Source: Epinephelus fuscoguttatus
Lineage: Eukaryota > Chordata > Actinopteri > Perciformes > Serranidae
Length of the DNA: 64,000 nucleotides
Assembly (NCBI RefSeq): GCF_011397635.1
Contig: NC_064775.1
Coordinates: 18,272,954 to 18,336,953 of the forward strand
Direction: 5' to 3'
Positions 31,765 through 63,346 of this stretch are shown here, piece by piece. Each line of letters opens with the position of its first letter. The stretch's first letter is position 1. The translations under genes were made by a program, and so were the position numbers. The notes under the pieces were generated by a model. The model was not told the DNA's origin. It searched no databases and worked only from the letters and a program-made list of their open reading frames with translations.

Positions 31765-33433
<1,669 letters not shown>

Positions 33434-38400: not shown

Positions 38401-41400
38401 GCTCTTGGCCCTCTCTCTCCTGGCCTCAGAGGACTGTTGGGTCTTCCAGCCTCTGTCTCAGCCTGGACAGAGGACAGCCCATGACTGAAGCTCAGAGCTC
38501 GGAGAGACTCCAGGCCTCCAGTCTGAGCAGGTGATTGTCTACACGCCAACAGTGACATATTCACTGACCCTCAATGATATCAGTTACCTGCAATTTAATA
38601 CACAGTACATACAGACAGATTGGATCGCTGAAGCAATAGAAATGATTAAGTTAGAAAAGGTAACATTCACACTGCGAAATAATGAGACGCAATATGCTGG
38701 AGCATGGGAGCTGGTGGAAAAGAACTTAATTTTACTATAGAAGGAGGGGAAGGCAAAAAAGATGCATTTAGTCTCCTCTTTTTCCGATTCAAACAAATAA
38801 TTTGTTGTTTGTTACCTGTGCTGTAAGATCGAAGTAACAATATTCATAACTGATATTGTTTGAGGGGTGCATTGGTAAAAGGTTGGTTTAAATTTGTTTT
38901 GGGAGGGGAAAAGAGATAAAAAAAGATACACTGCACTGAGGTACCTGGTTATTAGAAAACATATGTACAATTTTATGAAACCACAGTGGAAGAGCTCCAG
39001 GGTTCCCACCTTTTTGAAAGTCCTTGACTGTTTATAGTACCCTCTACATTGGCAAGTTTTTTTTGTTGTTGTTGTTGATGATGTTTTGTTTTGTTTTGGT
39101 TTTTTTTCCTTTTTGTGAGGGAAACTGAGATGTGGGGTTAGTATGCTATGTATGTATATCCCTCATGCTGTGATCAAAAATATAATATTAAAAAAAAAAA
39201 AAAAAAAAAAAGTCCTGGTAAGTTATGAAATTAGCAATGGCATTTTCCAGGTCTGGACATGGTTTCCAATTAACCCTTTGGCTTGATTTCTTTCCAAAAC
39301 ATAGGAAGAAAATTAGTTTAAAAAATTAGTTTAAAAAAAAGAAAGAAAGAAAGAAAGAAATGGCCTGGAAAGAGTGCTGAAAAATTCTAATAATTCTGTA
39401 ACATAATTTTAAGATGTGGTATTAATAATAATTATAATAAATATAGTTTCCCCTAGCTTTTTTTATTTTTTCCCTATTTCTTCATTATTATTATTATTTA
39501 TTTATTTTAAATTATTTATCTTAATCTAGTAATCTATCTATAATATTTCTTTTTGCAATTAGTGGGACATTTCTTACCAAGTTGCTTATTGCCTTTTCCC
39601 CTATGTTTTTGAAAAAAACCGCTACAGTTTGCTCAGGGTTCAAAGGTTTAAATACTTGCGAAAGGTGTCTGAAAGTGGCACAAGAAAAGTGATGTCACTC
39701 CAGGTTTCAAAGGGTTAAGCCTGAAAGTCCCCCAATTGGGAAGCACAGTGTGAAACAATACACTGATCACGAAGAATATAGTGATGTTGCACATCAAATT
39801 TAACAGCAGAACCTGGGCTCCAAGGCTGTAAAAACCCTTTTTACATGCCCCAAACACAGCTCAAACAACAACTAAATAAACAACAACAAATCCAACTCCA
39901 TACAGCACCGATACCCTGACCTAGTTGGTACATTTCGGGCGCTAACTCGACCACACACATGCAAAACACACGCCATTCATCTCAAATGAAAGCTGAGACT
40001 CCGCTGTTTCCACACATATGTACCAAAGCACTCTAGCCCAAACCATCAGAGAGCTAGAGGCCAAAGAACAACAACAACAGAAATCTTTTTGCCAAAGTAT
40101 ATTTGTAATATCTCTCTTACCTTGTTGTTATTGCTGTGAAAAGCTCATTCCCGTTTACTGACTTGTTGTCCGTCACTAAAATGAATCTGGGCTGAAAAAG
40201 TTGACGGCCGGAGGTTCCGGGGGAAGCATAACAATGAACACTTACAGCAGCCGACATCGCCCCACAACGTGTTCTGCTGACTCTGATTGGCTTACAGTGC
40301 TGTCAGTCTCGTCTCATCTCGTTTTGGTGGGTATAGCATCATTCTATTGGCTCTAACGAATCAAATGAGGTGTCAAGCACTCAAATCAGCCAAGCCGTCA
40401 CAGAGATATGGGCCTCCGAAGCGCAGTTTCAAATGTAGTAGGTGTGTATGGTCAGTTTGGAGTGGGAAATGGAGGGAAAAAATGAAACGGACAGTTGTAT
40501 GTGTATATCCTAAACATCATCAGGGATTTACAGAAACTAAAAATGAAAGATATAGGATTGTACATGACAAAAATCACATGCGAACATGGTGCAATTTTGG
40601 AGAGCTCGTGTGAATTTTCTGTAATAAAACCTCTCTAAAATTGTTCTGCTTCACTTTATCAGCTAAGGTTAACAGAATGTTTTAGAAAAATGTAGGGTTA
40701 ACCGGGGATTTCACACTGAGATTTGAGGCTCAAAAAATATGTAACTATTCACTGTCAGTGTTGTAAATGTGTGGTAATGCTACTGATAGTAAGTGCTGAT
40801 TAATAGCTAAGCTACGTAAGCTTGAATGGGAGGCTGCTGCAGTACAGTCATACAGCACAGTGGCATCAGACTGTTGTGTCCAACTAAATCAAATCAAACT
40901 TTTGGCTATCAACAGGTTTGTTACATGCAACGCTTGGCCTTACAATAACTGGTGGTTCAATCTCATATACATATTCGATTGTATCACAAGGTATCAGGAT
41001 TTGGAGTGTAAACAATGTCTGGCCAGTGTGTTGGGTCATGGATCCACTTGGACAGGCAAAGTCTAAAGGAACATGACAGTTTTAATCCTCACTTATTGAA
41101 GAGGCCTGCACACTTGGGTTCAGGGAAGGTCGCAAAACAATTAAACATGTCTGTAAAGCAAGCATTTGTTTAACAAGAAATGCATGCAAACTTGACAAAA
41201 TTATACTCCAAATTGTATTAACATTGGATGGATTTTCAGTTTTCAATCCTCCAGAAAGGCGAGCAGCATGATTGTTGCCTGTACTGGCAGGACTGGTCTG
41301 TTGTCAGTGGGTAAATGCTAATTCAGATCAGTAGCTAATCAGCTGCCCGTTCCAGCTTCATACTTAATAGACAGACATGAGAGTGATGTAGATTCTGCAA

Positions 41401-44400
41401 TCTAACTCTCTACAAGAATGCACCAAAGCTGTGAGGTGAACACTAACCACAACTTCACCTTCTCGTTCAGTGAAAGACTGAGCAAAGCCAGTGGAGTGCT
41501 GTCCTCCTTCACCAGCAGACCTACACTGCCACATACAGTGTCACCCATCTATCCGACCACTCCTGCCCTCTTACTGCTCATCTCCAACAGAATCCCTGCC
41601 TATGAGGTAAAACAACAATAAAAAGTCATAACCATCTATTTAAGAGAGCAGCGATGAAGGCTGTGAGTGTAAAAAGAACAAAGCACAGTGGGAAGATTAA
41701 CACAACATTTCTCCCTGTCTGCTCTGTTTCCTTTCTCCCTATGCTTATGTAGCTGGTGCTGAGTGGTGTGAAGGTAGGAGTGATGGTGGTTCTGTACGAT
41801 CACAGAGGGACTCTCACAGCTCTCTTAGCCCAGGTAGAGAGGGCTATTTCCGGGCGGACAGCTCAGAGGCTGGGTCTGCTGGCTCCGGGAGGAACAGAGG
41901 AAATCCATCTGCTTCACAGTGAGAATTAATAATCCTATGTGTGTTAATGTGTGGAAACACCGACAGGGTTAGTCCCAGTCCAACTGGAGTCTCCAGTGCT
42001 AGAAGTTTATCTCTCAGGAAACTGGGAAACACATCTGCTAAAACCATTTCACAGCTTATTGTAGTGTGACAGTAGCTTTTTTGTACACTAATTCCCCAGC
42101 TATCCTGGTGCCCAAGACTAATTACCATAAATCTTCCGTTACATATGAACTCACCCTTTTTTTCAGTCTACTAATGCAGTTCATTTTACCCTTGACTCTT
42201 TAGGTAGTAGCCTATCAGAGAGGACTCTACTGGCCCCCAACCACAGAGAATTCTGGGAAAAACTGTGTGGCTGGATAGCGCCATCTGAGGAGGGAGGGGG
42301 GATTGACATCTTTTCCTCGCTGGCAGCATCTGGTCGGGTGAAACAGATGTTAGGACACACACTTCTCTGTAATCCGTCACAGTCTTTGCATCTGTCTCAT
42401 TAACTTCCACCCTCTCTCTTCTTTCTTCCTCAGCATCAGGAGTGGCTCTCATCCAGACTCTCTCTACCCTGACAGGCCTGGAGGTTCGGGCGCCAGTGGG
42501 TCTTGCCACCGGAAGTTTCCAGAACAGTGAGTCACTCGTGCTGACTCAGACACTGCAACTGAAAAATGTTTGTCAGGAGCCCTAAGCCTAGCATTAATGC
42601 TCTACTGTTAATTGTGGCAGCTATGTTTTTATTTAGTCTTAGTCTTAGTCTTTGCATGTTCTCCCAGTGTCAGCGTGGGTTTTCTCTGGGTACTCCGGCT
42701 TCCTCCCACAGTCCGAAGACATGTAGGTTCATTGGTGACTCTAAATTGCCCGTAGGTGTGAATGTGAGTGGGAATGGTTGTCTGTCTCTATGTGTCCTGT
42801 ACCTGTCCAGGGTGTACCCTGCCTCTCGCCCAGTGTCAGTTAGGATAGGCTTCTGATGAAAAACACAGGTTGAATGTTTTAGATTGCAGCTTTGCTCAAA
42901 GTGTCTTGTGGTCTGATGACATCAATTCAAGGAGTACATCCAGACATGAGCACACTCTGTTTTGCATTTTTATTTTGAGCCAATGCAAGTCAACAACTGG
43001 CGAGCTATGCAGTCAATGAAACGTTTTGAAACCATTTTTTTCACCACCCATAGTACATGACAAAACCAGCCTGCTACTGGTGTAGTCTTGTGGTTCGTGC
43101 AGCAGAGGAAAAACAGCTGCTGCACTGAATAAAAAACGGTCTATAATATTCTCTCTCTCTCTTCTTTTTTGTTAACGAAAAAAGATTTTTTTTTTTTAAC
43201 TATTTTAGTGTGTTTTGCATGTTGACATAGTTATAGTGAGTGTGCTGTAGTATTATTGTTTGTACAGGCGCACTACCACAAGAAAACGCAGGTAATATAG
43301 GTAAGGTGCAGGTGATGAGCAGCAGGTGCGTGACGGGGGAAGCAAACAGTTTTTTGACCATGTTAAAGTATGGCAGCATGAAGCGTTTGTAGTGTGTTGA
43401 AAGTGAAATTGATGAATGGACACTTACCTTTAATGGACACTGAACTGTTAAGTGGAAACTTACCTGAGATGAATTACGGACATACACTGTTTTACCTGTG
43501 TGAAGGTGAGCATGTGTCAAAATAAATGGGTGACTGCACTCAAAGAAACAAATTGGACATTGGTTTATTGCTGTTGTCATTCTCTTGCTTTGTTTCTTAG
43601 TAGACTACAGTACCACCACCAAGTGTAAAGTTACTCTAAAGCATTGCATTAAAGCCACAATATATATATTTTTTTACCCTCTCACAGTCCTGAGCGAGTG
43701 GTCTGACGGCAGTGTGTGCACCGCCCTCTCGAACCAGCACCCAGCAGCCCCGGCTCTGCAGTTCGTGTGTGAGAGCGTACTGCATGGCTGGTGCAGGCAG
43801 GCTCAGTGGATGGAGGAGGCTCTGGGGGAGCTGAGGGGCTCCCTAGGGCCACAGCTACAACGACTGAGCCTCCAGGCCAGGGGCCGAGCTCTGGGTGGGT
43901 TTCACATACAGGTAGATTTTAATGCACATCTGGAGCAATGGCAGGTTTAAACAAATACCTGTGTGCTGTGTGTCCTATAAACTGTCTGATGGACCTGTGA
44001 ATGTATTTATAGGTCATTTTTTGTGGGAGAGAATTTGCCTTGAGGAGCTTTGTGTGTCCAAAGATGTAATCGAGGCTCTGACTGAGGGACTCACAGTGCT
44101 CACAAGACAGGAAGAGGTGAGAATTACTGTGGAAGTGTTTTGTAATAAACAAGAGCAAAAACTGAGATGATGCAAAGTTACTCATGTGCTTTGAAAGTTG
44201 TGTTTTAACTGCAAATAATTTTCTGTTCAGACCAGACCTTTGGAGTTTCTTGCCATGTTCCTGAAAAGATGGCGTGAGGAACAGGAGGGAGAAGAGAGTA
44301 ATGGGGAGGAAAAGAGGAGAAACAAAGAAGCAGATGATTTCTCCTTAACACCACATAGCTTGCAGCTTGAGCTACCACAGGTGTGTGTGTGTGCTTTGTC

Positions 44401-45071
44401 CATTCAGAGAAGGTTGAAGGAACACACAAACAACTTGTTTCTTTCTCTTTGTCCCTAGACAGCGTTAGATTGGAGAGGTGCAGCTGCCAGAGAGCTCCTC
44501 CACAGCGAGTGTCTCTATCTGGGGAGACTGAGCGCTGTGCTGAAGGTAGGTCATTGGTAGACTGCAAAAACATTAAATCAAAAGACTATTCAGCTTTCTT
44601 TCTTTTAGTACATTTAGTGACACTGTCACATGTTTAGCCATTGTTTCAGGAGCAGTCCTACTCGACATGTGGTCTAATCAGACTTTTACAAACACTTCCT
44701 CTGAAACTGAACACATTAGGTAATGCTGTTCAATCAGTTTAGAAAATAGAATAACACTGATTGGAAAAATTGCGGGAAGTTTATTTGAGACATTTTTAAA
44801 CTAGGTGTTTGTTGATGGTTCTGCAGCTGCATGGCATGTTTTTAGTTTTTATTAGAATTTGATTTGGGGAGGAGTTCAAAGTACCTTAGATGCAGAAATG
44901 GTTCAGTATTAGAATACTAACATGTTTGACTGATACCTGTCCCCCCCAATGTGTTGAAGGTGTACAAGGAGCCTCTTACTGCAGCTCTCAACTCCAACAG
45001 AGCCATTCTCAGCCACGCTGACATCCACATTGTCCTCAGCCCTGTCAAACAAATACTGGAGCTCAACAGGT

Positions 45072-45170
<99 letters not shown>

Positions 45171-46678
45171 TGTGTGAACATGATACATGTGAGTGTGTTT
45201 GCTGCAGCGTGTTTCAGGTAGATTTACAGACCAGGCTGCAGCAGTGGGGTGCAGAGCAGTGTGTTGGAGATGTGTTTGTAAAACTGTGCTCAAAACTCAG
45301 AGTCTACAGCAATTACCTCAACAACTACACCACCGCCCTCCGTACCATAGACAAGGTGCCGTCAAACAATGTATATGTGCCATATTTTAGACAAACTGCT
45401 CATCTCTATGATATGTAAGTAAAGGGTGTTGTGTGTCAGTGCAGGGAGACCAAGCCTCCATTTCGGGCTTTCCTGAAGAGAGCTGACAGAACTCTTGCAA
45501 CACACATGCTGAGGTAACAGCACACACACATACACTTGTATCTTTATTTGTCTCCATGGGCATCATTGTCCACACCTGACCATAAGACTATAATCATTAA
45601 TCACACCGTAATGTTTACAGACATGTTATTGTGTTTGTGAAGCCTGCAGGAGCTGCTGCTGTGTCCAGCGTGGAGAATACAGGAGTATGTGACTCTACTT
45701 CAAGCTCTGTCTTTACACACACACCCCAGTCATCCCGACCACACACACCTGTGCTCTGCCCTCAACACCCTGCTGAGATTCAGGGAATTTGTACAAAAGG
45801 TACAACAGAGCTGTGAGTCAGTACCTCATGCTGATTAATAAATAAATGTGGAGTCTGTAGCATTTCTGTGCCATGAACATCAGATGTTTTCTTTTGTGTC
45901 AGTTGAAGCGTAACTCAGAGAGAGACAGGCTGATGGAGGAGACGCAGCAGATGATTCAAGACTGTCCAGTAAAAACACAACTCCCTCTTTTTTCTCATTC
46001 TTTCAAAACAACCCATAAAACTTAACTACTGTGAGTATTTTATGATGAATAAGGTGTGTGTTTATGGTTGTGTGTCTGTCATGTAGAACCTCAGCGAAGG
46101 GAACAGGCAGCTGATAACAACTCAGGATGCTGCTTTGCTCAGGAGCCCTGATGAACAGATACCAGACTCACTCAGGTAACAAATCTATGTTTTAAATGGC
46201 GTCATAACTGATTGTAAATCTAATCACCTGCTTATTTTCGCTCTGTGTGTTTGTGTGTGTGTGCATTATTAGGACCTTTGAGCATGTGTCTGATGTGGGC
46301 CTGTTCCTGTTCAACGACGCTTTGGTGTTGACACGGCGAAATGTGCATCACACACCTTTCACGCTGGCTCACCAGAGCACACACACATTCCTGGCCTCTG
46401 TGGCCCTCGCCAGCGTCGCTGTCAGAGAGATCGCACATTCACGCTGTGAGTTTTTGTCTTGTAGGGACGACAGTAGCGACAGCTTTGATGACTTTCATTA
46501 ATCTTCAGTACATGATCATTTAAGTCTGGTCTTTTTGACTGTAGATGTGTGTCATGCCTTTGTCCTGGAGGGTCCTTGTCGTTCCTGGGTTTGTGCCACA
46601 GAAAGAGGTGAGGAGAGAGAGCACTTCCTGTCTGTGCTGCGTTCGGCCATAAAAGCTGCTCTGACAGAACATCAGTGA
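35408..46678 (+). CDS. ect2l: Epithelial cell transforming 2-like, F-box and RhoGEF protein, complete
   Basis: Twenty-one coding exons: 35408-35557, 37472-37584, 37697-37859, 37935-38190, 38296-38530, 41417-41606, 41753-41918, 42204-42332, 42434-42526, 43688-43894, 44013-44116, 44231-44380, 44459-44545, 44960-45069, 45208-45355, 45440-45513, 45643-45799, 45903-45968, 46087-46175, 46273-46445, 46545-46678. They sum to 2994 nt and 997 aa, with all phases consistent and GT-AG junctions. Order of parts: conserved N-terminus ([17 protein letters not shown]), F-box about 106-150, charged linker, DUF4347-like segment about 355-498, helical segment about 499-650, DH domain about 653-866, PH domain about 867-997. 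Known of the family: a putative guanine-nucleotide exchange factor for Rho GTPases that may also link to SCF ubiquitin ligase through the F-box. Substrates are unknown. Human ECT2L (about 900 aa) likewise neighbours CCDC28A. Confidence 0.94.
37472..38190 (+). CDS. ect2l: ect2l exons 2-4: F-box region
   Basis: Exon 3 holds the F-box core: [33 protein letters not shown], continued in exon 4 by [20 protein letters not shown]. The pattern LP..L...I/V..FL...DL..A..V...W......LW is the standard F-box signature for Skp1 binding. Exon 4 continues with [11 protein letters not shown] and [14 protein letters not shown], then a Glu/Arg/Lys-rich stretch ([14 protein letters not shown]). Introns here are very short (75 bp between exons 3 and 4). 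The exon 3 acceptor (tgtgagcag) has a poor pyrimidine tract. Confidence 0.9.
38296..38530 (+). CDS. ect2l: ect2l exon 5: Ser/Gly-rich linker
   Basis: Acceptor ttgtgtttgcag, donor gtgatt. It encodes a low-conservation linker ([18 protein letters not shown]... to QASSLSR) between the F-box part and the DUF4347-like part. I support it by phase: it is the only frame that connects exon 4 to exon 6 without a stop. Confidence 0.75.
39271..39719. mobile_element. Possible piggyBac-type MITE in ect2l intron 5
   Basis: The block starts TTAACCCTTTG (about 39271) and ends with the complement CAAAGGGTTAA (about 39708-39718), so TTAA sits at both outer ends, as expected for a piggyBac target. A degraded internal copy of the terminus is at about 39640 (GGTTCAAAGGTTTAA). 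The middle is AT-rich, with GAAA repeats and ATT repeats. Identification is tentative. Confidence 0.4.
39720..41416. other. Remainder of ect2l intron 5
   Basis: The intron (38531-41416) is the second largest in ect2l. 39890-40620 looks repeat-like (AACAACAAC tracts, CGTCTCATCTCG) and produces a meaningless open frame. No additional exon is needed: exon 5 ends AG and exon 6 begins A, which restores the frame. Confidence 0.5.
41417..42526 (+). CDS. ect2l: ect2l exons 6-9: DUF4347-like domain
   Basis: Four exons encode about residues 355-498. Landmarks: [14 protein letters not shown] / [19 protein letters not shown] / [14 protein letters not shown], then [40 protein letters not shown], and [20 protein letters not shown] followed by [12 protein letters not shown]4347 in bacterial surface proteins has the same order: a 'vviD.rvpdy..L..gl..g..vvvld...dg..qi...l' strand-loop, an 'i.ihlvsHG' strand, an 'L.......g.di.lygC' segment and a terminal 'LTG.dvaastd.TG'. 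The bacterial His-Gly and Cys positions are not obviously preserved (here APGG and FSSLAA), so any enzymatic role is doubtful. Confidence 0.8.
42640..42860 (+). repeat. Common fish interspersed repeat in ect2l intron 9
   Basis: Carries the well-known string of motifs CAGCGTGGGTTTTCTCTGGG, TACTCCGGCTTCCTCCCACA, ATTGGTGACTCTAAATTGCC, CGTAGGTGTGAATGTGAGTG and GGTGTACCCTGCCTCTCGCC. This sequence is found in many teleosts as a non-LTR retrotransposon 3' part or SINE tail. No function for the host gene is implied. Confidence 0.75.
43688..44380 (+). CDS. ect2l: ect2l exons 10-12: helical linker
   Basis: Exon 10 starts from the phase completed as [20 protein letters not shown] and ends inside GCTCTGG before gtgggt. 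Exon 11 continues [20 protein letters not shown]. Exon 12 encodes [20 protein letters not shown], a Glu/Lys/Arg-rich stretch and [13 protein letters not shown] stronger-looking donor 17 nt downstream of exon 10 (cag then gtagat) is not usable because exon 11 would then hit a stop. Confidence 0.85.
44459..45968 (+). CDS. ect2l: ect2l exons 13-18: RhoGEF (DH) domain
   Basis: Six small exons (87, 110, 148, 74, 157 and 66 nt) encode a DH-type helical bundle: [20 protein letters not shown] (helix 1, with the E..Y pattern), [53 protein letters not shown], and [20 protein letters not shown] (the CR3 region). Typical DH domains have P-x-Q-R-x-x-R/Y in CR3. Here the glutamine place is occupied by Trp (PAWRIQEY), so exchange activity should not be assumed. 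The final helix is [20 protein letters not shown]. Confidence 0.88.
45075..45165. repeat. (CA)n(TA)n compound microsatellite in ect2l intron 14
   Basis: About 44 bp of CA followed by about 47 bp of TA, starting five bases inside the 138-bp intron (45070-45207). The repeat occupies two thirds of the intron between two DH-domain exons. Confidence 0.96.
46087..46678 (+). CDS. ect2l: ect2l exons 19-21: PH domain and C-terminus
   Basis: Exon 19 encodes [19 protein letters not shown], exon 20 [20 protein letters not shown] and the rest of the beta-sandwich to AVREIAHSR, and exon 21 [20 protein letters not shown] plus the C-terminal helix [20 protein letters not shown]. The pattern [14 protein letters not shown] and the terminal W...E...F...L helix identify a PH domain of the DH-PH type. 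Stop codon TGA at 46676-46678. Confidence 0.9.
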
Positions 46679-48286: not shown

Positions 48287-48649
48287 TTTATTGATAACCA
48301 AAAATAACACAAATGTCACATTTTAGATATCATCACTATCAATGAGCTGCGGTACAACACATCACTTATACACTTATGTACATTATTGCCACTCATTTAA
48401 AAAATATCCACATGTTCCATCCTTAGAAATGGATCAGTGGCTGTGTCGTTATCTGTACGCCTCAACAGATCAAGTACTGAAAGATCGATACAAATGCCAA
48501 CAATACAAAGAAACATTCATTTTCAGTCAAGTACATATAACAAACTTAATGTTCTAGTATTACTCTTCACTTTTGTTTTCATCACAGTGACATCTTCACA
48601 CACATCTCTGACACTGGAACTACTTTCTAAAATGTTTTGTAGGTTTATT
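48287..48649 (-). terminator. filip1l distal-isoform poly(A) signals
   Basis: On the minus strand AATAAA occurs at 48649-48644 and 48292-48287. These lie about 310 and 670 nt past the stop codon of the terminal exon at 48961-49188. Confidence 0.55.
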
Positions 48650-48960: not shown

Positions 48961-49188
48961 TCACAGTCTGCGGTTCACCAGGTTTGGGTTGTTGTTGTTG
49001 TTGTAGTTGTGTGCTGCAGCCGTGTGTGTGGGCTGCTCTTTCCCATTGGCTACATGAGTGAGTGGTGGCTGACTCTTGCTCTGCTGTCCCAGGCCTGCTG
49101 CCGTGCCGGTTGTCCCTTTCTGGGAGCTGTAGCCTTTCGGCTTGGGGATTCTTGTGGGTCCTGGTCGTCGGAATGCTTCTAGAGGTAT
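48961..49188 (-). CDS. filip1l: filip1l alternative terminal exon with FILIP1-like basic tail
   Basis: Starts in phase 0 after an excellent acceptor and encodes 75 residues: [40 protein letters not shown], and an Asn run (NYNNNNNPN) before LVNRRL. The PTRIPKPKG core resembles the PTPTRIPMSKG motif near the end of FILIP1, the paralogue. The Asn run is encoded by a short AAC repeat (GTT on the plus strand at 48990-49004). Joined to the large exon it gives ...[15 protein letters not shown]. Confidence 0.82.
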   Translation of the reverse strand: MPLEAFRRPGPTRIPKPKGYSSQKGTTGTAAGLGQQSKSQPPLTHVANGKEQPTHTAAAHNYNNNNNPNLVNRRL

Positions 49189-52100
49189 CTGCGGGGAAAC
49201 ACAGACAGAAAACAATGAAGTAAAGTCAGACAAAGAGTGGTGATACTGTACTGTGCAGCAAAGATGAGGAAGAGGTGGTAAGAAAATGGGAGACAGGAGA
49301 GAGTTATATGCACACAAGATACAGACCGTGATTTTGACCTGCCCAACAGGCTAAATTGTTTCCAGTCGCTCAGTTAAGATCAGATGCAATACTTAAAGTG
49401 ACCACTAGATGATATCAAATCATACTCTATGAATGGTGAATGACCACAGGGCCAAACTTTTACTGCATGACTGCTGCACTTTGTCTTTTAGAAGAAAGAC
49501 AGCTTCTTTTTTTCCCCTTTTTCTAGGTCTTAAAAAGGGAGTCCATATAATCCCAGGTGTCCTCAGAGTTACTGCAGGGAGGCCTCCAAATTATTGTTTG
49601 ATAATTTAATGTGTTTTAATTGCATTTTGTTTTTCAAAAATTAAATGGTCTGAAAATACATGTTAACATGAATCCAGAATATTATTAGCAAAGATAAACC
49701 AGCCTATTCATATAAAAACTCATTTCATTTACAGTACACAACATTAATGATAGGCTAACTGTTCCACATGAATCCCTGTGCAGTCATGTGAACTAGCTAA
49801 TGCTAAATCAGTTAGCAGCACCATTCCATGACAGGGAGGTGAACTAGTTCGCTAAGAGTTAGGTACTACTGAAACATATTGGTCAGTTTGCTGTAGTATT
49901 ATCCCAAGCGTAGGGATTTTCTTGTAAGCCACAATGGATCATTTCATAACTTTTTGAGCAGAAGACTCTGACGCCATCCACTTCAGAAACTAACTAACTT
50001 TTCATTCTTACAGAGCATTACACGGTCAGGCACCCTCTTATGTAGCTGAACCACTTATTCAACATTGTGCAAATGCACATTTTCTAAATATTGAGGGAGT
50101 GTGTGTATTTTAAATAATGAGAAATGTGTAAAGGCAACTGTTTTGATAAGCTTTTAAATTATAGAGGGCATTTTCCTCTTTTTTTGTGATATGTCATAGA
50201 CAAAATAATTAGTCAATTAATCGCAAACATAGGCAGATGATGACTTGATAATGAAAACAATTGTTAGTTGCAGCCATAGAAATGTTTTTGTGCTAATTAT
50301 TTACCTCCTGTACTGCATTAAAAAAAAACTCGGGATTTCTGTCTGAAATGTGAAAACATTTTTTCATTGCTGCCCTTAATATAGTCCCAGTTTATCCCAT
50401 TATTATTAATAACAGTGTGTTTGTCGCTTAGAAACCAGTGTTTGGCATTCGCAGCACAATCTGCAAACAAGAAAAGGAAATATCTTGGGAAACATCGCAT
50501 TTCTCAGATTCTAAAACAACTCACTGCTCTGCTTACTGTGTAATCACACTTCAATCAGGGTGTTTACATGTGCAGCAGCGTGCCAGCATACTGAGGCTGT
50601 ATCACTTGTGGATCGGCCCTTATACAGTGGAAACCATATCCTGTTTACCGTGATAAGATGTTTCCACAATTATGAGTAACCTCAGCAACAGGCGGTATAC
50701 TGAGCCATAGACACTCTTCGTTCTTTTACAGTATGTTTTGTGTACTTCTTGCAATAGAGTGAATTATTTAAACAGGGCTTATATGAGCTAATATGAGCAA
50801 TTATCCAAACTACTGTGTGCGTAACGACACTCATCTAATGCAGTAGTCATGTTTCCAGGACTTTTCTCTCCCTTGGACATTACATGCATAAATATGCAAG
50901 TATCTGTATAATACATTATATTATCAAGCAGAGCTTCCTGCACTTTGTCCTAATGCAATTTGAAGATACATCATGTAAAAACGACCTAAAACACTGGGAA
51001 AAATAGGATTTTAGCCAATCCCCACTCTATAACACTTAGGTTCACCATAAAATATAGTGATAAGAACCCTTGAGATACCTTTTTTAAAATTTAGAAATAA
51101 AACATAAAATGTTCTCATTGGAAATTCATAATATGTAAGTTAAAATGCACATATTAGTCGTGTCCCCAAGTTTTTACTCAGTCCTGTTATCCTAACGCTC
51201 TTTGGATGATAAAGGTTCCTGACCCCAGTGCTAGGCTAAAAAATCAGTCCTATTACTTTCAGTCAGTTACTTATACTGTATGGACCATTTTCCATAGAGA
51301 AACCTGTTAAAAACATAAATAAAATGGCCTGAGATTGACCTTGACACATTTCAAATATTTAAACATATGTAGTAATAGACACAGTGCTGAAAAAGAAAAA
51401 AAAACTCAAGTGCAAGTTTGGAAAGTTACAGCATACAAAGGGCACCATTTGGTGAAAAGTCCCCTGTATTTGTGTCGTAATATTACTAAATTTGCTCTAT
51501 AAGTAATAATAAAAAAAAAACAGCAACTCCTTATATCATATATTTAAGAATTTCAAGAGCCTTTAAAATCACCCGTACAAATGAGCAGTGTGTCTCTTTC
51601 TCTCTTTCCATGCCAATAGTTTTTCTTCTCCAGAGACTAAATTACTCTAAATTACTTCTTGGCAACACTCAGCAGGCAGTTTTTTTCTTATCAAGGGATC
51701 TAATTGGCACATAATGTAATTTTCAATCACATTATCACAGCTTGGGTCTTCCTTTTCCTCAGCACCTACTTTAGCAAAATGTTCTGACAAAGTTCTTGTA
51801 CACCACCTCAAATAATCCATTTAAACTGATATTTTTGCAGCATTTTAGATTATTATAACCATCATTTAAAGCCTGAAGGCTATTGAAAGGCAGTTTTTTT
51901 TTACAAGGACACAATGACTGTATGGAGCCAGAAGAGTGACAGTAAGTTTTGGCATCAAATATAAAATTTGGCATTAAAAAAAGGATACAAAAAAAATAAA
52001 AGATAGGTATATGAAATCAAATTTACTTGATTTTAATATTTTTGTTGCAGTCTGGTGGGTTTTTCAATGACAATCTTGTATTGAGACCTCTGTGGATAAA

Positions 52101-55100
52101 TGGGCTCTTGGTAAAACCATCCTAAACAATGAACACTGAAGTAGAGCTTAGATTGGGCCCAAAAAATTCAGCACGACCCAGCCTGAGCCTGTGCACGTTA
52201 TGTCCGGGAATGGCCCGACCCGTCCACTTAACTGTAATTATGGGCCTGAGCCTGATTTAAACCCGACATTTTTCAATAAGTTGGCTGTTATAATTAACGC
52301 TATGGACACACCGAGCACGTTAGTGCCGCGGAAGTCCTGCGAGTGTACTCGCAGGTGCTTGACTGTCCACTCAGGCAGCGCATTTCTCCTGCACTCTCCG
52401 CGCCGGTTAAACATCGACTCCACTCGTCTGTTCCCGTCAGTACTCGTTTTTTCACTTCAACAGGTCATTTTAAACATGAGTAAGTCCATATTTTCATCGT
52501 TTTTTATAACGTAATAAGTTAATGACAATTTGTCATTGCATGTCCATGTATTGAGCGTGCTGGGTAAACACTGAATGAATAGGGCATATTTTTTGGAGGC
52601 ACGGAAAGCCGCTGTCCCTCCCACTTATCTCTACCACCCGACGCAGCTTGGGCTCTGGCTCAGGCAGAGAATCTAAGCTCTACACTAAAGTCGTCCTAAT
52701 CGGGAGAAGTTACATCTGGTTGCAATGTGCAAACCTCATCACTAGATGCCACCAAATCCCCCTAACTCGTACATACTTTTCCTTAAAAGTGGATCTTCAT
52801 CCCTTTTCAAAATTGAAACACCTTTCCCCTATGGGGCAGACAGAACAAAATTATTAGTAAAAATGAAAATCTCTCAGCCAAATCCCAAAACTAGAATTCA
52901 ATGATGTCATATGGCAGAGGTAGGCAATTTGTTGCTCAGGAGCCACATGGGGCTCTTTAGCCCCTCTCCAGTGGCTCCTTGTGCATTTGACAAAAATTAT
53001 ATGAAAATGAATATGAATGAATGTTTTTTTTTTCAGCATTTTAATTTATCATTGTTGTAGTCCTAAAGTGATTCTTACATTTTCCAGCCGTATAAATGTG
53101 TAGCCAGTACACAACAACTCAATTTGCTGAATCTCAATAGCGATGGCTAAGCTTGAGTCTCCTTAGTGAGGCTAGCTATTTATTCCACAACCAAAAAAGA
53201 AAACGTCCTGGAGGAAAATAGAGAATTTCATTATGAGTACAGATTTGTTTGCTTTACCCACTAACAAAGTTTAAGTACCAAGTAATCATAAATAGCCAAT
53301 GCTGTCATAGGGTATAAAGTCTGAAGCTGCTCCATAGACAATTGATTGGGAAAGATGTTATACGTAGGTGACACTGAGAGCACCCAGGGGAACGTTCTGA
53401 GTATATGGGTACATTTTCTGTTTCAGAACTTAGAACACTACAACAGAATAAATCTCATTTGGGTTTAAAAAGAAAACAAACACTCTGTGAGCCCATAAAA
53501 TCAGGCTCCCATTCACTGTCTGTGGAGCAGCTCTAGAATTCATACCCTCTGACATCACAAGTTTGAAACTTCCTCCTCTGGTTTCTGGCTTTGAGAGAGT
53601 AGCTCATGTTCACAGATACTGATTGAACTTCCCTAGTCCATGGAAATAACATACTGTAATTCTTAATTTAGGTGGTGTTCCCCTTTAAGAGCCATTTCCC
53701 CAGTCTCAGTTCCCTTTTGAAACAAAAACGCTTTTTGCAACAGACAAAGAGCTACCTCTCTGACAAAGAAAAATGTGTCATCAATCTGGTCGACACTCCT
53801 GCAGCTGAGTGAAATTGAAACTTTTTCAGTGTTTCCATGAGTTTCATCACACCACTCACTTTATTCCCAAGCAACACAGCAAACGTCTTGCTTGAGAAAA
53901 GCACTTGGACGTGTTCGTGTGCGGCTTGAGGTTTTGAGAATTAACAAAAACCTGCAGTGAACTCTATCCTTAAATATTCATACGGGGTGTACATTTCAGA
54001 ATAAGTGGGGCCTGCGCTCCAGCAAAGCTAATGGGCCAGAAAATCCGTACGGGCTCCACGTTATGGGAGTGTTGTTGATTTTACATGGAAAGAGGCCTTA
54101 ATGTGCGGCTTTGTTCTCTCGTATATCAGTGGTGCAGCAGGAGTTCAACTAAGTACTTCCTTTGCCCTGCACTCTGCAATCCCAGCCCGGCTGTTTCCAT
54201 GGCAACCAAACATGAGGTTTGTTTTGGTGCTTGTGTTGCATTGGGAGAGAGGCTACTTCACAGTGTCTACCCTCTCACACTCAGTGTGGAGCCTTTTGTT
54301 TAGAGAAAGGTCCCATAGCGCTGTTTATTGCCTTTCCCTTGTTTTATTGTGCCGGTCGGTCAAGGTGAGCAAATTCCTCTGCGATTAGTATCATTTAGGG
54401 CTGAAGTAGGAAATCCGCGCTAGCCTGCAATGTGATGCACTTGTCTTTTTTTCTGGCATGCGGTGTGCTAATTCTTGGCTGCACTTTATTTACATCAGTA
54501 GCTGATTGTTTAAAATTACATCACGGTTTTTGATGTTATTGATGCTTTATTTGACCCCCAAAAATGCTGCTTTTAATCAGCAGTATCATTGTGTGATTAC
54601 GACCTCGCTCTCAGCCAACAGAAGCATCACTGTACGCTTTTCAATGAGACACCCTTTGGCTCTCAGAGCGTCACTCGATGCTCATTTTATCAGTCTGGCA
54701 GGGATACCGTGAGCAGATCCTTGGCTGGACCAGATGAGTTCAGTTTGTGAATTGAGTAAGTCTAAAGTGAGTCAGAGGGTAATTGAGGTTGCAGACAGTA
54801 ATCCCAGCTGTTGGACGCTTTCTCAAGTAGTGGTCTAATGAATAGCATCTTGTTTAGCCTCTGCATCATTTCATTGCGCCCAGACTGCTTTGGATCCGGT
54901 TTCTCCAGCTGCGCTCCTTCACACTCATTCGATTTAATGCTTGATTTAATCATCTCCTCCGTGTCACACTGGTTTGTGTGTGTGTGTTTGGGTTGGATTA
55001 CTGCAACAGTTGTCTTGCTCCGTCTAAATGACACTGAGCATTTGGTGCACGCTTTATTGTATTTTGGAGAAGCTGTCACTACAGAGATACTCATCTGCTT

Positions 55101-58100
55101 GTTGTACAACAAAAAGTGATGTTGCATCACATTCAAGCTTCAACACTTTAACTCTTTCGGATCCTTCTAGGGTATCTATGATCACTGTCATCAGACTCGG
55201 CCCAGGTGCACAAACTTATTTGCTTGAATGTCATGATCACGGTGTTCCACATCATCAAAAGTAGACTGCATTAGAGCCACACCCACTTTTTCAGGCAGGA
55301 TAGAAGCATGAGGCACATTTTAATCTATTAATCTATTCAGATTTTTTGTAAAGGGGTGTTATGGGGTATTTATCCATAGTCAGTGCATTACATAAAGTAG
55401 ATGTTTGTGGGCACACCCACAGTTTGGAGAAGCAGCAGGTGTGCCGACACGGAAGCTATGCAATGAACTGCTGTGGACAGGGTCAGCAGCAAAACATATT
55501 TTAGCTACCTAAAAAAAAGGCCCACCTAAAAAATCTACAACAGTGCAAGTGTACGCTACATTGAGAATATTGTGACCACCTTACCTTACTGTCAGATAGC
55601 CCGTTCCAATGGTGTAGCTCTCTTCAAAGCCAGACTCCATTGACAAAAGCAGTGATTTTGGTCTGCTGAACACAGGAGCTGCTGGTGTACAGCTGCCTTG
55701 ATCAGTTAGTTTGTTTGTGTTACTGAGTGATTTTGATGAATCCGAACTAACTCTTTTAAATGTTTAAGTCACATAATAACACAAAGTAGGTAACAGATAG
55801 AGGCAGCATTAGACCAGCAGCTCCTGTGTTCAGCAATGTTAAATAACTGTTTTTCTTAATGGAGTCTGGCTTTTAAAAGAGCAATATAACACTCCATTTC
55901 CTCGCTGGACATTGCTGTATGACAGCAAGGTAAAGCAGTGAAAATACCCTAAATATCACATACAATTCAACAGATATTTATTTATTTTTATTTTCTTGTG
56001 GCTAAAATATATTTTGCTGATGACCCCTCCACAATAGTGCATGTATGTAATACACTGACTATGATAAGTACCTCATACACTTAAGAAGATCAAAACTTTC
56101 CATTTAAAGCACATACTTTGTGTTTTATCAGTTTTTAAAGTAAACATGAGATGTTGTATGACTTATGCACATCAAAATATGAAAGGCTGATAGCATCTAC
56201 CCAGGATTTTTGTTTTCTTTTTTAATCTGTCCATTGGACTGGACAGGGGATCTGGGTGTCATCAGGACATGAGTAGGGAAATACCGATTTATTTATTGAT
56301 CTGATTTATTCTTCTTTAGACTGTTGTGATTTCATTTTCTAATGATACAGTCAGTTTAATATGCATCTTATTGATTATTTGCACAGAATATTAATCTCAG
56401 GAGGTTTCAAACAAACTGTTTTTTGGAGATTTTTCCAGAAATGTAGGCTATTTTGAGTCGTGATGACAAATACAAATTATATATACATTCATGACAAATA
56501 AATTAACTCATGTTTTTTGTTGCCGTTGCCCACTTTTACTATTAGGTGGTTTCTCGCTTTCTCAAATTGATAGAAAAAATAACACATAATAAAGCATTTT
56601 AAACATTGTTATATTTTTTTGCGCATGATTTTTGAATGCATTTAGACTAAAAATCAGTAGAAGCACCACTGCAATTTTTTGAGCATATGTGTGGTCTTAA
56701 AAATGGTAAAATGTGAAGGAATTTCCAAACAATTTGTTTTCTGACATTATATTTTAAAATCTCAAAATAATGTGTAACGTATATTTTTTTTAAAATGTAT
56801 TTACCAAATACTTCTTGCATTAATATCACACAGATCAGGAGAGAGGAACCAACATCACATGTATACATTTACATCATCTAATCACATTTTTCAAATTGAT
56901 ACCTTTATGACAATATAATATAATTGTGCACTCTTAATTGTGTTCCACTCTTTATATTTATTTTTTTACGTAGATCATCTAACTTTTATCTTGACCAAAA
57001 AAAGTCATGTTTTATGTTATTATAAACATTTAGGGAAAAAAATTGTGCCTTACCCTGATTAATTGACATTGGTTTGTGTTTTTTTCCCCTCTCTCTCTCT
57101 TTTTCTTCAATTTTGGTTAAATTTCATTTCCAGTAATATAAAAAAAGCCTTAAAAAGTCTGAAATCTAAGTTGTCTTCAGCGGCAGGAACTCTGAAAATG
57201 ACATAAGAGTTTAGGAAACAAGGAAGGAGGATAGACGCTGGAACACAAGTGACATTGTTTGACTTCATGTCTTTGGACAGTCATCCTCAAATGTGGATGC
57301 TTCGTCTTCGACACAGTGAACAGAGTCAGGAGAAAATCTGATGCGGAGTTTGAGTCAGCATTGTTAGCTTCTGCTCTCTATCAGCTAGACGTTGAACTCA
57401 ATTAGCATTCTGGATGAGTATGAAGCAAAGAACAGCAGCCAGTGTCTGATGCGCTCACACATAATCCCCAGATATATTCAGTGTGTATCAGATTGCCTTG
57501 CATGCATTCTTTGAAAACCAGCTAATCCATCTGAAATACTCAGATAAAGCACAATGAATTCTTGTTTGAAATGTTAGGTTACTTGTGTATCCGTCCTTGT
57601 TAAAAAAAAAAAAAAAAAAAAAAGACATGCATGTGAAGCACCACTTCAGTACAGATTCAGACCTCTCAGTGGCTTCAGGCTGTCATAGATAATAGGCACA
57701 TTACATATTCATATACTTAACTTGTATTATGACTCAGATTCTCACTTTGATTCCAAAAACTACTGCAAGAAAAACTCTGTGGCTATTCAATTTTGGAATT
57801 ATTCTGTCTTTAAGATTTTTCTTACATCGCCTTTGTGTTGAAACATGACATTAATGAATGTGCTGCAACAGATAAAATCATCCCACATCCTCCCCACTGT
57901 ATCCACTCCCACATCCCTTCCATTCCTCTCTTTCAGTCTCCATCCCCTCATCATCATCATCATCATCCTCTGACCTTCGGTACAGATTTGATTTAAACGA
58001 ATCGCACGTACGTGGTAACGTTTCCACTGTGGGCACATAAAACCACATGTAGAAGAATGCATTTACATGGAGGAACATTCGTAAGTTGTCCTGATGATTC

Positions 58101-61100
58101 ATTTCAAAGGACATGATTCATGGGAGAAAGCAAAATAAAACAGAAGTTTTGGGTTACTACCCAACGAACAGCAAGCTAAGTGAGACTTTTTGCTAAAAGA
58201 CCACTGAGGTTAAGCTATCAGCAAATGCATGAGTGTTTTTAAGACCCAGACACTGTATCAGGTTTTCAGAAGGGGCTTTCTGATGTTTAAAGTGTTTCCT
58301 GGAGTGAAATATTAGGTGGCAGCACTCACAAGAATGGGCAAGCAAGGACAGTTTTTCTCTTTTTGGCACTAAAAGATTTGATTTTAAGGATTTTTTTTTG
58401 CCATGCTACATTGATGCCAGATGGATCATTTTTAGAGCTCAGCACCATGTAGGGGTTGAGTGTCTTGCTCAAGGACACCTCAACATGGTGGCTGATGGCC
58501 AAGGAAAACTGAAATTATAGTCTTAATAACCACTGCCTTGATCTGCTGCTCATTTAGTTTGTCATCAACCCAATCACCAGAAAATATGTTGGCATGGAAC
58601 ATTTATGCAAACCACAGATGCGTTAGATTTGCACGTTACTAGGTAGGGGATACTTTGAAACTTCATGTTTCAGCAATGCTGTGGTTAACGTGTGGATTAG
58701 GTTTAGACACAGAGTCCACTTGGTTAGGCAAAGAACATGTTTTTGTTTAAAATACCCCGTTTAGGTGGCACAATATTGGCCAGAAAAGCAACTCTAAAGC
58801 CCTGTTTCCACCGAGCAGTGCAGTGCGATTCAGTTCAGTTTGGCAGAGCAGTGAGTGACAACAGCCCCGCCTACATTTAAGAGAACTGTTTGCAGTGGAA
58901 GAGCTAGAGTCTAAGTACCATGTCTGAAGGGTTACTTTTGCTTCCAAACGTACCATACCGAAAGTGTTTGGTGGAAACAGGGCTTAAAAAACAATCACTT
59001 TTTGGGCCACAATCCCGTCCAGAGAAGCAGCGCCGTCTCAGTAAAACACAACTGCTTTTTGAGCCACTATTCAGGGAGGAAAAGTAGCAATTTCTCAGTT
59101 TTTGTGCATAAAAAGTTGCTAGAAAAACAGTGACAGGTCACAACAAAACACCCATGTTTGGTGCCAAAAAAGCTGCTTGAAACACAGCAATGACTTGCAA
59201 AATCACACCTGGGTTGTTTTTTTTTGTTGGTCTTTAACAGTTGACAAACACTGATATGATATGAGTGACATGTGGTGTGCAGAAATGTACAATGCCAACA
59301 TTTTCTTCTAGCGACTAGGCTGTCATCATCAAGGACAAGAAAGAGATCAATTTGTCTGAATTTGTGTTTTTAGAAAACTTAACACGTGAGTGTTGAATCT
59401 TGTGAACTCATCTGAATTATAACTATGTTTTAGTAGCCTACTTTCATGTTTTAGTAATATATGAAAGTCTAGTGGAAAAGAGCAGCTGTAATTCTACCAA
59501 ATCATGCATTTTTTTTAGATTCACCTCTTCCAGCAGCTTCATGGCGCAGCACTCTGAGGTTTAAAGGTTTCAAGCAGAGTTTCCATGAAGAAAACACCAA
59601 GTTCACATCACGCTGGTTTTCATTCAGTCTTTGGGTTTCTGTGCCCTGGATGTAAGAAGAAACTATGACCTCAGCCTATGATTTTAACTCGAGCAAGAAG
59701 AGAATCCCAGAAGGTTTTTTGTCTTGTAATTTGGTCGAGTATAAGCACAAAGGTTTTTCAGACAACTCTTCCACTTGGGTATTATTTAATTACTTGACAG
59801 TCTTTAAGTTGAAATCTGAGTTGTGATCTTTTGACCACAAACTGTCTAACATAAACACATCTGATTGAAATCTAAAGTGTTAAAAAGTTACTGTGCATGC
59901 ATGAAAAAATCAAATCAAACAACTGATTACAATCTAATCGCATTTTGCTCAGATTATTTTTTTAATTTTACACATTCAAAACATGCTGGATTTAGTGAAT
60001 AAATGAAATTGGCAAGCATGGATGACAAACTATAAAACATAACACTTCTTTTTGCACACTTTAATTCTCAGAAAACCAAACAACTTAATCATAATGCAGT
60101 ATGAGTAATATGAAGTATAAAAACTGGTATGATACATCAGTGTGAATAGTCTGACTACATGGCAAATTAGCCACTGGGTACAATACAGTAAGTGCACATA
60201 TAAGTTAAAAACCTGGTGTTATGTCAAATCAAATCAAAATTTTCTAGTACTTTCAAATGGTATTGTTTTCTCATGCAGGCAAACATTTGAACTTAATCAC
60301 ACAGAACCAAGCAAACCAACCAAAATAAAAAGGAAACATTCAAACCCTGGTTTAAACTCATAAATCAAGTAAAACAGACGTGTAAATGTATCAGGGTATA
60401 GAGCTGGGGTATAAGGGTCTGTGGTTGAGTTGGATCTCATGGGCGGGGTTCAGTAACACAGGATGGGATGGAGGGTTTTGGGGATTATCAGGTCAGTCAT
60501 AGACATTACTTACTGTAATCTGTGATGGCCTTTGGATTGGGGTGGAGGTGGGTTTAATCATGATGCTACTTGTGATTTTGCTGTTGCCTTTGATAGTAGG
60601 AGTGCTGCAGTTTGCAAGCACCTGAGTCCTTTGCTCCTGGAGTCCAGGCGTGTGGCACGGACTCAGTGTTTGCGTTGGAGTGGTGATGCTCTGAATGAAG
60701 GGGCTCCCTAAGTGAATGTGGATTTTGTTGTCCTCCGTGGTAATGACGTTTGGCCCAGAGCTGTTTGACCTCTGGACCTGCCAGTTGCTTTGCCTTTCCG
60801 GGGTCACGCGGAAGACAGCATGCCCTCCGACAACCTCCAGTGGCTCAGTGGAGTGGGAACGTTCAGGGGTGCCTGTTGTCACTGACACTATTTGTATAGG
60901 TGACATGGCTCTGTCTGGTGTTACAGAGCCACAAGAGTCTGGAGTCATTGTTCTCGAGTATGTGGCCATAGTGAAAGGTGACAGGGCTCTGTCTGGTGAA
61001 CATGGCTCATCAGAGATTGGGGAACCTTTTGATTTTGTCGTTGGGGAAATGGATTTAGCAGTAGGGGATATGGAAGCATTCTGGATGATGGTGATTCTCT

Positions 61101-63346
61101 GTTTGGGTGGACCTCCGCTTGTGGGTATGACGGCAGTGCTGGTGAATGACTGGGTGTTTTCTGTGGTCGGGCTGGTGATCTCCAGCGTTGCTGTGTTATG
61201 TCCATGGTCAGGAGTCACTTTAATGTGCAGAGGCTGCCCAGGGCTGTGGGTCAACACAACATCTCCAGGCTGAACATGGTTGCCGTTCTGCCGCGGCTGC
61301 ACTTTGCCATTCACCTGATGGGGTGTGTCTTTGTTTTTAATGAACGGCACTCGTGCTCTTCTCAAGTTGTTTAGATTATTGACACTATTGATAAGTGAGG
61401 GGCTACATTTGGTAAGCTGAAGCTCATTGCTGTAATTTGCATTTTCCTCAGCTTCGCTCTCGTCATACAGCTTACCGTTCACCACAGCACGCTCCAGTGG
61501 GGCCATTGTCTTACCGTTGGGAGACATGAGGTCAAGAGGCTCTGTCTGAACTTCTTTGGTGGAAACATGAAGGTCTGAGAAGCGCCTTCCATTCATGCCA
61601 GGGCGAAGACTTTTGCTGAAGCGTCTATATCTCTCAAGCTCCCTTGTGAGCGTCTCCATTTCTCTGGCCAATTCTTTGTTTCTGACTTCCTGTTGGGTCA
61701 GCTTCCTTTGGAGAGTAGAGTGATCTGTTTTCATGCGACAAATAGACTCCTCTGTCCCCATGTATTCGTGGATCTTCTCTTTCAGAGCTGCTACCTCTCT
61801 GGTCAGATGACTCGACTTTGCCTCCTCCTCCTTCAAGCGTTTATAGAGAACATGCTCTTGGCTGCACTCTTTCTTTTCAGCCAGTTGGTACTTTGAAAGT
61901 TCTTTTCTAGATATTTCCAGCTCCTCCATCAAGGCTTTACCTTTCTCTTGCTCATTGGTGAATCTTTTCTCCAGTGATTCAAACTCCTCAGTTTTCAAGA
62001 GGTCGCCCTCTACCACCTTCATGTCCTTTAACTTGCGTCTGAGGCGTTCAACCTCCTGTGTCAAATCCTTTACTTTGTTGTCTTCTTGTTGGAAGCGGTT
62101 AGCAATAGGTGTTTTGATGTGCTCCTCTTTAGCTTTGCTTCTCATGTACTCTCTTTCTACATTCTCAAGCGACTGCAGCCTTTTCTTCATCATGTTGATC
62201 TTAGACTCCAAATCATTGCTCTTTTCCTCTTCAGCACTCAACTTGGCCTTCAAGTCATCTCTTTCCTTTGTGGCACTGCACATTTTCTCCTCCAGTTCAG
62301 CCTTTGACCTCAGTGCTTTCTTGCTCTCCTCAATCAGCTTCTCTGTGACTGATGTGACTTTGTCCTGTTCAGCCTGAAGCTTGCCAGTGCTGTTCTGGAC
62401 CTTGTTCTCCATTTGCTTGAGCTTTTCTGCCATCACCTTCCTTTCATCCACCAGCATAACTGTCAGAGTCTTTAACTTGGTCAGATCTTCTTTCAGCGTC
62501 AGCTCTGTCTTTCCCAGTTGGCTTTCAGCAGCCTCCAGTTCTTTGACTCTCACTTTCAAGACTTCCAGCTCACCGGTCAGGACCTTTGACACCATCCTTT
62601 CCTTCTCCAGGTTACTTTTGAGTGAGCTGCATTCTTGTTTGCTCTTGCTGAATGCGTCCTCTAGTTTCTCCAAGTCCATAATTCTGTGGTTTAGTTTATC
62701 GACTTCAGCCTTTAAGTTCCGGCTTTGGTTGGCCTCTTTCTCCAGTTTCTTGTTGAGGTCCCTGCAGTGGTCCTCCATTCTGATCAGTTCTTCATCCTTT
62801 CCTTCCATTTCGAGTACCCTTTTACGCAACTCTTCAAGCTCAGACATGAGACTAGAGTTTCCACACTCACCACGGCTAATTTTGTCCCTTAGCTCCTGCA
62901 GTTCCTCGTCAGCTCTGCGCAGGGTCTTGTTGGTCTCCTCCAGCTCATCAAGCTGCCTGCTGAGAGTTGACAGCTTCTGGCGCAGCTGCCTGTTTTGGGC
63001 GTCCTCGCTGGTCAACTTGGCAGTCATGGCGTCTTGTTCCTGATGGTACCGACCGGCTTGGTCACGCAGCTCAGCCTCCAAGCGAACAACCTTTTGCTCC
63101 TCTTCTTGCAGACAGGCATTAGCGGAGCTCAGCTCCTCCTGGGCTTGTGAAGCACTGGCACTCAGTTCTTGGACCTTTGCTGTTTGTTGGTTCAGCTGCT
63201 CAGTGAGACGCTGCTGTTCATCCACAACCATCAACGCAAATGACTTGAGTTTTGTCAGCTCCTCCTTCAGACTGTTGATCTTTTTGTTGTTCTCTTCTTC
63301 CTTCCTTTCTTGGTAGGCCTTTTCTTGATCAATTAACAGCTTCAAC
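48961..63346 (-). CDS. filip1l: Filamin A-interacting protein 1-like, 3' part (N-terminal exons outside window)
   Basis: Two coding exons are visible: 60514-63346 (acceptor ttttacag, donor gtaagt) and 48961-49188 (acceptor tttccccgcag), joined in phase 0. They give 944 plus 75 residues. The upstream exons, expected to encode about 200 residues including most of the CortBP2/FILIP N-terminal domain, lie to the right of the window. The large exon starts with one base finishing an Arg codon and then [18 protein letters not shown] and [20 protein letters not shown], which match the FILIP1L sequence I know and distinguish it from FILIP1. About the first 580 residues are continuous coiled coil, and the rest is a Ser/Thr/Pro-rich tail. 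The family acts at filamin and the actin cytoskeleton; FILIP1L is reported to restrain cell migration and promote filamin degradation. The intron between the exons is 11.3 kb. Confidence 0.94.
49189..52133. other. filip1l long intron, left part
   Basis: AT-rich and without exon-like blocks on the minus strand. Short A- and T-runs are common (51390-51410, 51510-51525, 51895-51905). Confidence 0.45.
52142..52682. mobile_element. hAT-type MITE with 8-bp target duplication
   Basis: Terminal inverted repeats TAGAGCTTAGATT (52142-52154) and AATCTAAGCTCTA (52670-52682) are perfect. The flanks carry an 8-bp direct repeat, CACTGAAG at 52134-52141 and CACTAAAG at 52683-52690, one difference. An 8-bp duplication is the hAT hallmark. 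The 541-bp interior has no transposase motif, so it is non-autonomous. Confidence 0.85.
52691..58794. other. filip1l long intron, middle part
   Basis: 53990-54380 and 54700-54990 are non-repetitive and more GC-balanced than the rest; they could be regulatory elements (for example AATATTCATACGGGGTGTAC at about 53974-53993). 57601-57622 is a poly-A run. No exon found on either strand. Confidence 0.4.
58798..58984. mobile_element. PIF/Harbinger-type MITE with TAA target duplication
   Basis: Perfect 15-bp inverted termini AGCCCTGTTTCCACC (58798-58812) and its complement (58970-58984), flanked by TAA on both sides (58795-58797, 58985-58987). The length is 187 bp, non-coding. The 3-bp TAA duplication and size fit PIF/Harbinger MITEs, which are abundant in fish. 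Confidence 0.87.
58988..60059. other. filip1l intron / possible 3' UTR of the read-through form
   Basis: No exon. 58680-58740, just left of the MITE, holds a degraded copy of the motif TTAGACACAGAGTCCACTTGGTTAGG related to the element at 8281-8335. Confidence 0.4.
60060..60065 (-). terminator. Possible poly(A) signal of the read-through filip1l isoform
   Basis: ATTAAA on the minus strand, about 430 nt after the 60493 stop. It is a common variant signal. No AATAAA is nearer. Confidence 0.35.
60493..63346 (-). CDS. filip1l: filip1l large exon, read-through form ending ITVSNVYD
   Basis: If the donor at 60513 is not used, translation continues seven codons through the GTAAGT sequence, giving VSNVYD and TGA at 60495-60493. 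The human FILIP1L reference protein, from memory, ends SQITVSNIYN, so this read-through C-terminus is the conserved canonical form and the donor sequence is embedded in conserved codons (Val-Ser). The tail contains [69 protein letters not shown] and [17 protein letters not shown], with many Ser-Pro/Thr-Pro sites ([32 protein letters not shown]) that could be phosphorylated by proline-directed kinases. Confidence 0.9.

Follow-up and report, generated by a model that had tools for sequence, protein, structure and literature searches.

FILIP1 has been described as binding EB1 and EB3 via SxIP motifs and colocalises with EB3 (PMC10313560, citing Jiang 2012), and FILIP1 and CTTNBP2 are both tabled as SxIP proteins in a paper that gives the rule for the motif as [ST]-x-[IL]-P, without surrounding acid and with a basic residue within the preceding four (PMC4834103). 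A MACF peptide of this type, KPSKIPTPQRK, was used for a crystal structure of EB1, and the segment following SxIP is critical for EB affinity (PMC12695022). Alternative splicing also varies the carboxy-terminus of FILIP1, the FILIP1-4 form lacking exon 6 and ending differently (PMC7244511, in whose main text SxIP, EB1 and EB3 do not occur). Alternative FILIP1 carboxy-termini and SxIP binding by FILIP1 are already published. Here we analyse the 3' end of the related gene filip1l in a stretch of 64,000 nucleotides from the genome of the fish Epinephelus fuscoguttatus (contig NC_064775.1, positions 18,272,954 to 18,336,953 of the forward strand, or C24:18272954-18336953), referred to throughout as the window. 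We suggest, with somewhat more confidence than doubt, that this gene has an old EB-binding tail exon shared with filip1, which splicing would add to the protein and which read-through combined with intronic polyadenylation would omit.

The large exon of filip1l reads ...QRPSQIT on the minus strand of the window, its last shared codon being ACA (Thr) with the final base at 60514. GTAAGT follows directly at 60513-60508 and continues AAT GTC TAT GAC TGA, the translation past the donor being VSNVYD and then TGA at 60495-60493, which bears out the first-pass annotation in its claim that the same six bases serve as a splice donor and as Val-Ser codons. The annotation called this donor near-perfect, which is correct for the intron side only: the exon side is imperfect, with A at -1, and the site scores 6.9 bits (rank 84 of 3,808 GT sites of the minus strand; splice-site scores were computed here from textbook frequency tables). 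The announced strong phase-0 acceptor 11.3 kb downstream is present as TTTCCCCGCAG, with first exon base 49188 and 75 codons open to TGA at 48963-48961; at 11.45 bits it ranks 14th of 4,074 AG sites and fourth between 45,000 and 60,500. A donor, a phase-matched acceptor and candidate polyadenylation, or poly(A), signals after both stops are all found in filip1l, and exons matching the distant one occur at three paralogous loci of the same genome, on contigs C11, C13 and C14. The features of the window are as follows, all on the minus strand.

60514..63346, minus strand: last large coding exon of filip1l, 943 whole codons read, with its acceptor at 63346; the gene extends upstream past the window.
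60508..60513, minus strand: GTAAGT, donor, or Val-Ser codons when unspliced; 6.9 bits; nonamer ACAGTAAGT, identical in the C13 copy.
60493..60513, minus strand: read-through end VSNVYD plus stop TGA (C13 copy: VSGLCD plus stop).
60060..60065, minus strand: ATTAAA, candidate signal for intronic polyadenylation, 428 bases past the read-through stop, with a GT-rich stretch after it (by eye); a signal match only.
49189..60513, minus strand: intron removed in the spliced form, 11,325 bases, deduced from donor and acceptor.
49189..49248, minus strand: pyrimidine tract and acceptor CCCCGCAG (11.45 bits, rank 14 of 4,074), preceded at a distance of 41 bases by a branch-point-like CTGAC.
48961..49188, minus strand: terminal coding exon, 75 codons plus TGA; matching exon at three paralogous loci.
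49144..49155, minus strand: TRIP, SxIP-type candidate EB-binding motif, fitting the rule in PMC4834103; invariant in 4 of 4 aligned tails.
48644..48649, minus strand: AATAAA, candidate poly(A) signal, 312 bases past the tail stop, GT-rich downstream (by eye); a signal match only.

The paralogues were searched for in the same genome, an assembly of 1.05 Gb in 26 contigs. The search with the large exon gave six rows: one is the window itself, three are relatives of this exon on C11, C13 and C14, one is a further piece of the exon on C13, and one, at C14:17205843, is a shorter match outside the traced set. The three paralogous loci are those on C11, C13 and C14. Pfam finds CortBP2 in the large exons of all three and has no match in their tails. 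The large exons form the pairs C24 plus C13 and C11 plus C14 with support 1.0, identity being 53% between C24 and C13, 63% between C11 and C14, and 36 to 45% between the pairs. We take C24 plus C13 provisionally to be the filip1l pair by comparison with human sequences, 148 of 256 positions being identical to FILIP1L against 90 of 233 to FILIP1; by its large exon the gene is presumably the same as mammalian FILIP1L (DOC1). The C13 copy sits on a long branch (0.55, compared with 0.15), and its tail is the shorter one.

The distant exon proposed by the first-pass annotation proves to be in phase and to have counterparts at all three of these loci: each of the 3 traced relatives has a phase-0 donor followed by a phase-0 acceptor that opens a short exon with TRIP at residue 12 or 13. 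In C13 the donor is ACA/GTAAGT, the acceptor scores 12.2 bits and the tail has 39 codons; the corresponding values are GTG/GTGAGA, 12.0 bits and 65 codons (PSSDVQSARSAATRIPVSKG...) in C11, and ATG/GTAAGT, 7.8 bits and 68 codons (TGQDAQPPRTGLTRIPMSKS...) in C14. An exon filter applied to a 40-kb stretch of each of C11, C13 and C14 and to the window returned one match apiece on the minus strand, each time the TRIP exon, and 0, 1, 1 and 0 matches, respectively, on the plus strand. The likeness to the end of FILIP1 that had been noticed in the window is therefore found within the genome itself, where both filip1-like genes end in an exon with TRIP at the corresponding place and in the same phase. 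The human FILIP1 end gave the same answer and is not used as support.

Alignment of the tails shows the same T, R, I, P and one K in 4 of 4. Over a 12-codon core chosen around TRIP, comparison of the window with C13 gives 10 differing bases, of which 8 fall in third positions, and 2 altered amino acids; 2 or fewer alterations came up in 2 of 5,000 trials with random changes. The cores of C11 and C14 each differ from that of the window at 6 amino acids, a result as low in 51 and 118 of 5,000 trials, respectively. The third-position bias of the core differences favours frame 0. BLASTP of the window tail against the C13 tail, as a single comparison, aligns them with 14 of 25 residues identical (E 1e-9). 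Genome-wide, the best other match of the C13 tail is the window tail (E 0.0089), and the sole other match of the C14 tail is the C11 tail (E 5.7e-9); a weak third match of the C13 tail lies on C3 (E 2.84). Between the pairs, a profile comparison that includes the last 25 large-exon residues gives an alignment across the junction (probability 85.6%, E 5.6e-6). Of 5,000 shuffles, 12, 0, 136 and 182 attained the respective scores of the four tail pairs, and 0 of 2,000 attained the summed score. By these comparisons the filip1l tail exon is a real, old terminal exon under coding selection in its core. Its position, phase and TRIP, the same as in filip1, are best read as common descent of the two tail exons and, because all four genes examined in the genome carry it, the origin of the exon is best placed before the filip1l and filip1 pairs diverged, in agreement with the ancestral terminal exon postulated by the first-pass annotation.

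The best reading of the RIPKPKG region of the tail is that its TRIP, lying in a basic stretch devoid of acids, is an SxIP motif for EB binding. The rule given above describes 4 of 4 tails, and its full form occurs in 0 of 254 stop-free overlapping intron windows. No SxIP word occurs in the 943-residue large exon of the window, in the read-through end or in the N-terminal exon at C24:18392865-18393182, an absence that applies to the large exon and this one N-terminal exon, further N-terminal exons having not been found. The filip1l tail shares with the EB1-bound MACF peptide the pattern xP[ST][KR]IPxP with basic residues, whereas it has Thr for Ser and another post-SxIP segment. PDB searches with the filip1l tail and with the large exon gave no match. 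With donor 60513 spliced to 49188, filip1l would end in the basic tail with TRIP, which would bind the EB1/EB3 homology domain and so link a filamin-interacting protein to growing microtubule ends. With the donor unused, translation would run six codons into the intron and stop, the message would be cut at the intronic poly(A) signal, and the product would be filip1l without an EB motif and with an unchanged large exon. The use of both ends, the EB binding and the cellular effect are what we infer from the sequence.

It could also be, although we think it rather unlikely, that filip1l always ends in the tail exon, as filip1 may do as well, and that the read-through frame is an unused start of the intron. 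Such a view is consistent with the retention of the exon in all four genes examined, with the fact that an in-frame stop soon past a donor is common, and with the read-through lengths of the filip1 pair, which differ (15 and 4 codons). Both filip1l copies, however, share the donor nonamer with A at -1, the position of the stop codon and the final Asp. The first-pass annotation had spoken of a conserved read-through end, which stands in a weaker form: the C13 copy has the same nonamer and stops at the same codon, whereas the residues differ (VSGLCD instead of VSNVYD). The poly(A)-like hexamers point the same way, lying 428 bases past the read-through stop in the window and about 111 bases past it in C13, as opposed to none in the C11 intron and one at 899 bases in that of C14; such hexamers are common in the A+T-rich filip1l intron and are therefore a weak part of the case for an alternative last exon. 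Taken together, moderate evidence suggests that filip1l keeps a second, read-through end. The human FILIP1L forms diverge after ...QIT as well, one end being SNIYN, which closes the forms of 1133 and 893 residues, and the other a short spliced end that is not known to contain an SxIP word. The FILIP1L form studied in PMC3855469 has 893 residues.

A further alternative accepts both ends as real and has the tail act on stability or on another partner instead of on EB binding. It is in keeping with the report that removal of the last 103 FILIP1L residues raised stability in cancer cells (PMC3855469), and with the observation that only the TRIP core is well conserved, SxIP words being short. We nevertheless judge it unlikely, as the one word that all four tails keep unchanged is of the SxIP type and has the context that the rule demands, and as FILIP1 and CTTNBP2, of the same family, are listed as SxIP proteins (PMC4834103).

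Several results weigh against an EB-binding tail that is added by splicing and shared with filip1. The ends of FILIP1-2 and FILIP1-4 bound filamin identically and the end was thus not decisive there (PMC7244511). Among the first 27 codons of the tail, 13 differ in amino acid between the window and C13, so that constraint is placed on the core. BLASTP of the window tail against the C14 filip1 tail gave no match, profiles of the filip1l and filip1 pairs built from the tails only match weakly (probability 8.9%, E 0.0037), and the junction-spanning profile score is partly due to the shared end of the large exon, so that what links filip1 to filip1l is TRIP together with position and phase. In C14 the acceptor used here (7.8 bits) has little advantage over another phase-0 acceptor farther upstream (7.4 bits). 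As to the motif, bare [ST]xIP occurs in 727 of 20,000 shuffled tails and in 44 of the 254 intron windows, the [ST]x[IL]P rule with its context is passed by 806 of 20,000 shuffled tails, a stricter test, which allowed no acid in the 8 residues to either side, failed because a Glu stands 8 residues before the motif, and four more [ST]x[IL]P words, three of them in accordance with the rule, are present in the large exons of C11, C13 and C14. Within the tail exon, finally, the +2 frame is also open and has a codon score of 19.6 compared with 14.2 for frame 0, and frame 0 stays open in 816 of 5,000 dinucleotide shuffles.

Other properties of the window speak for the exon. Its G+C content is 56%, versus 38% for the intron, and 0 of 10,776 overlapping intron windows reach the exon value; the codon score of frame 0 is above that of every one of the 254 overlapping stop-free intron windows; and when the whole downstream region was shuffled 300 times, 2 of the shuffles had an acceptor of at least this strength with 75 phase-0 codons open behind it. 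By itself the window points to the tail exon without proving it. That a cryptic acceptor happens to precede a G+C-rich open stretch, without there being an exon, would fit the two open frames of three and the 816 shuffles, and the window alone left room for it, but it is extremely improbable and is rejected by the in-phase matching exon at three paralogous loci and by the bias of the differences to third positions.

Upstream, the large exon of filip1l has an acceptor of 12.7 bits at 63346, and its frame contains the end of a CortBP2 domain (PF09727, E 4.1e-9, profile 141-187 of 187). The upstream exon at C24:18392865-18393182, about 56 kb outside the window, covers profile positions 18-87 (E 6.3e-16), and the exon or exons for positions 88-140 were not found. 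No relatives appeared in two scans of viral contigs, nor in a scan of genome contigs, the latter made with the large exon only. In the filip1l intron upstream of the window, at L002:6134-6823 and L003:1763-2149, lie frames that by eye resemble a Tc1-type transposase in two parts, with retroelement-like sequence between them.

The run of Asn residues in the tail, part of the Asn-rich character that the first-pass annotation had mentioned, corresponds to a run of AAC triplets at 49002-48988 of the minus strand. This run is not present in the other three tails, and the Asn-rich part of the filip1l tail is probably of no main importance.

The plus strand at 32028-46501 carries a ccdc28-like frame (PF13270, E 1.6e-11) as well as F-box and RhoGEF frames, running toward filip1l. 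The latter belong to one probable gene, presumably ect2l. The last frame that resembles this gene by eye, without a Pfam match, ends near 46501, about 2 kb from the poly(A) signal of the tail, and the two genes may be arranged tail to tail. It is unlikely that the tail exon is part of a neighbouring gene, the ccdc28-like and F-box/RhoGEF frames being on the plus strand; their last exons were not traced.

Compared with the known systems, the proposed filip1l ends resemble FILIP1-2 and FILIP1-4 in that carboxy-termini differ through alternative splicing, whereas those forms belong to the other gene of the family. The filip1-like genes of this genome differ from filip1l by a second conserved block of their tails, LESRAESQSM[KR]IE[LV][RK]KS...GGK (L010:7574-7768 and L018:8036-8239, minus strand), which is absent from both filip1l tails, and filip1l differs from them by a read-through end of conserved length. 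A literature search, which returned mostly listings and passages, covered subscription journals little and did not extend to fish gene databases, where both forms may already be recorded, gave no statement of an SxIP end or of its switch in FILIP1L. The tail and end peptides of filip1l were not found in the literature text, and carboxy-terminal forms of FILIP1L are not described in the accessible parts of PMC8138604, PMC3416772 and PMC3855469.

We propose only tentatively that the conserved GTAAGT of filip1l is the switch that decides whether this filamin regulator is a plus-end protein: the ancestor would always have had the EB end, filip1l would have gained a fixed non-EB end, and mammalian FILIP1L may later have lost the SxIP end altogether. 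Returning to the reading that we favour, of a tail exon with TRIP that is included or left out, if splicing does set binding to microtubule tips, one gene would give both an actin-side regulator and a linker between actin and microtubules. Such splicing-controlled tip binding may bear on the differences between FILIP1L and FILIP1.

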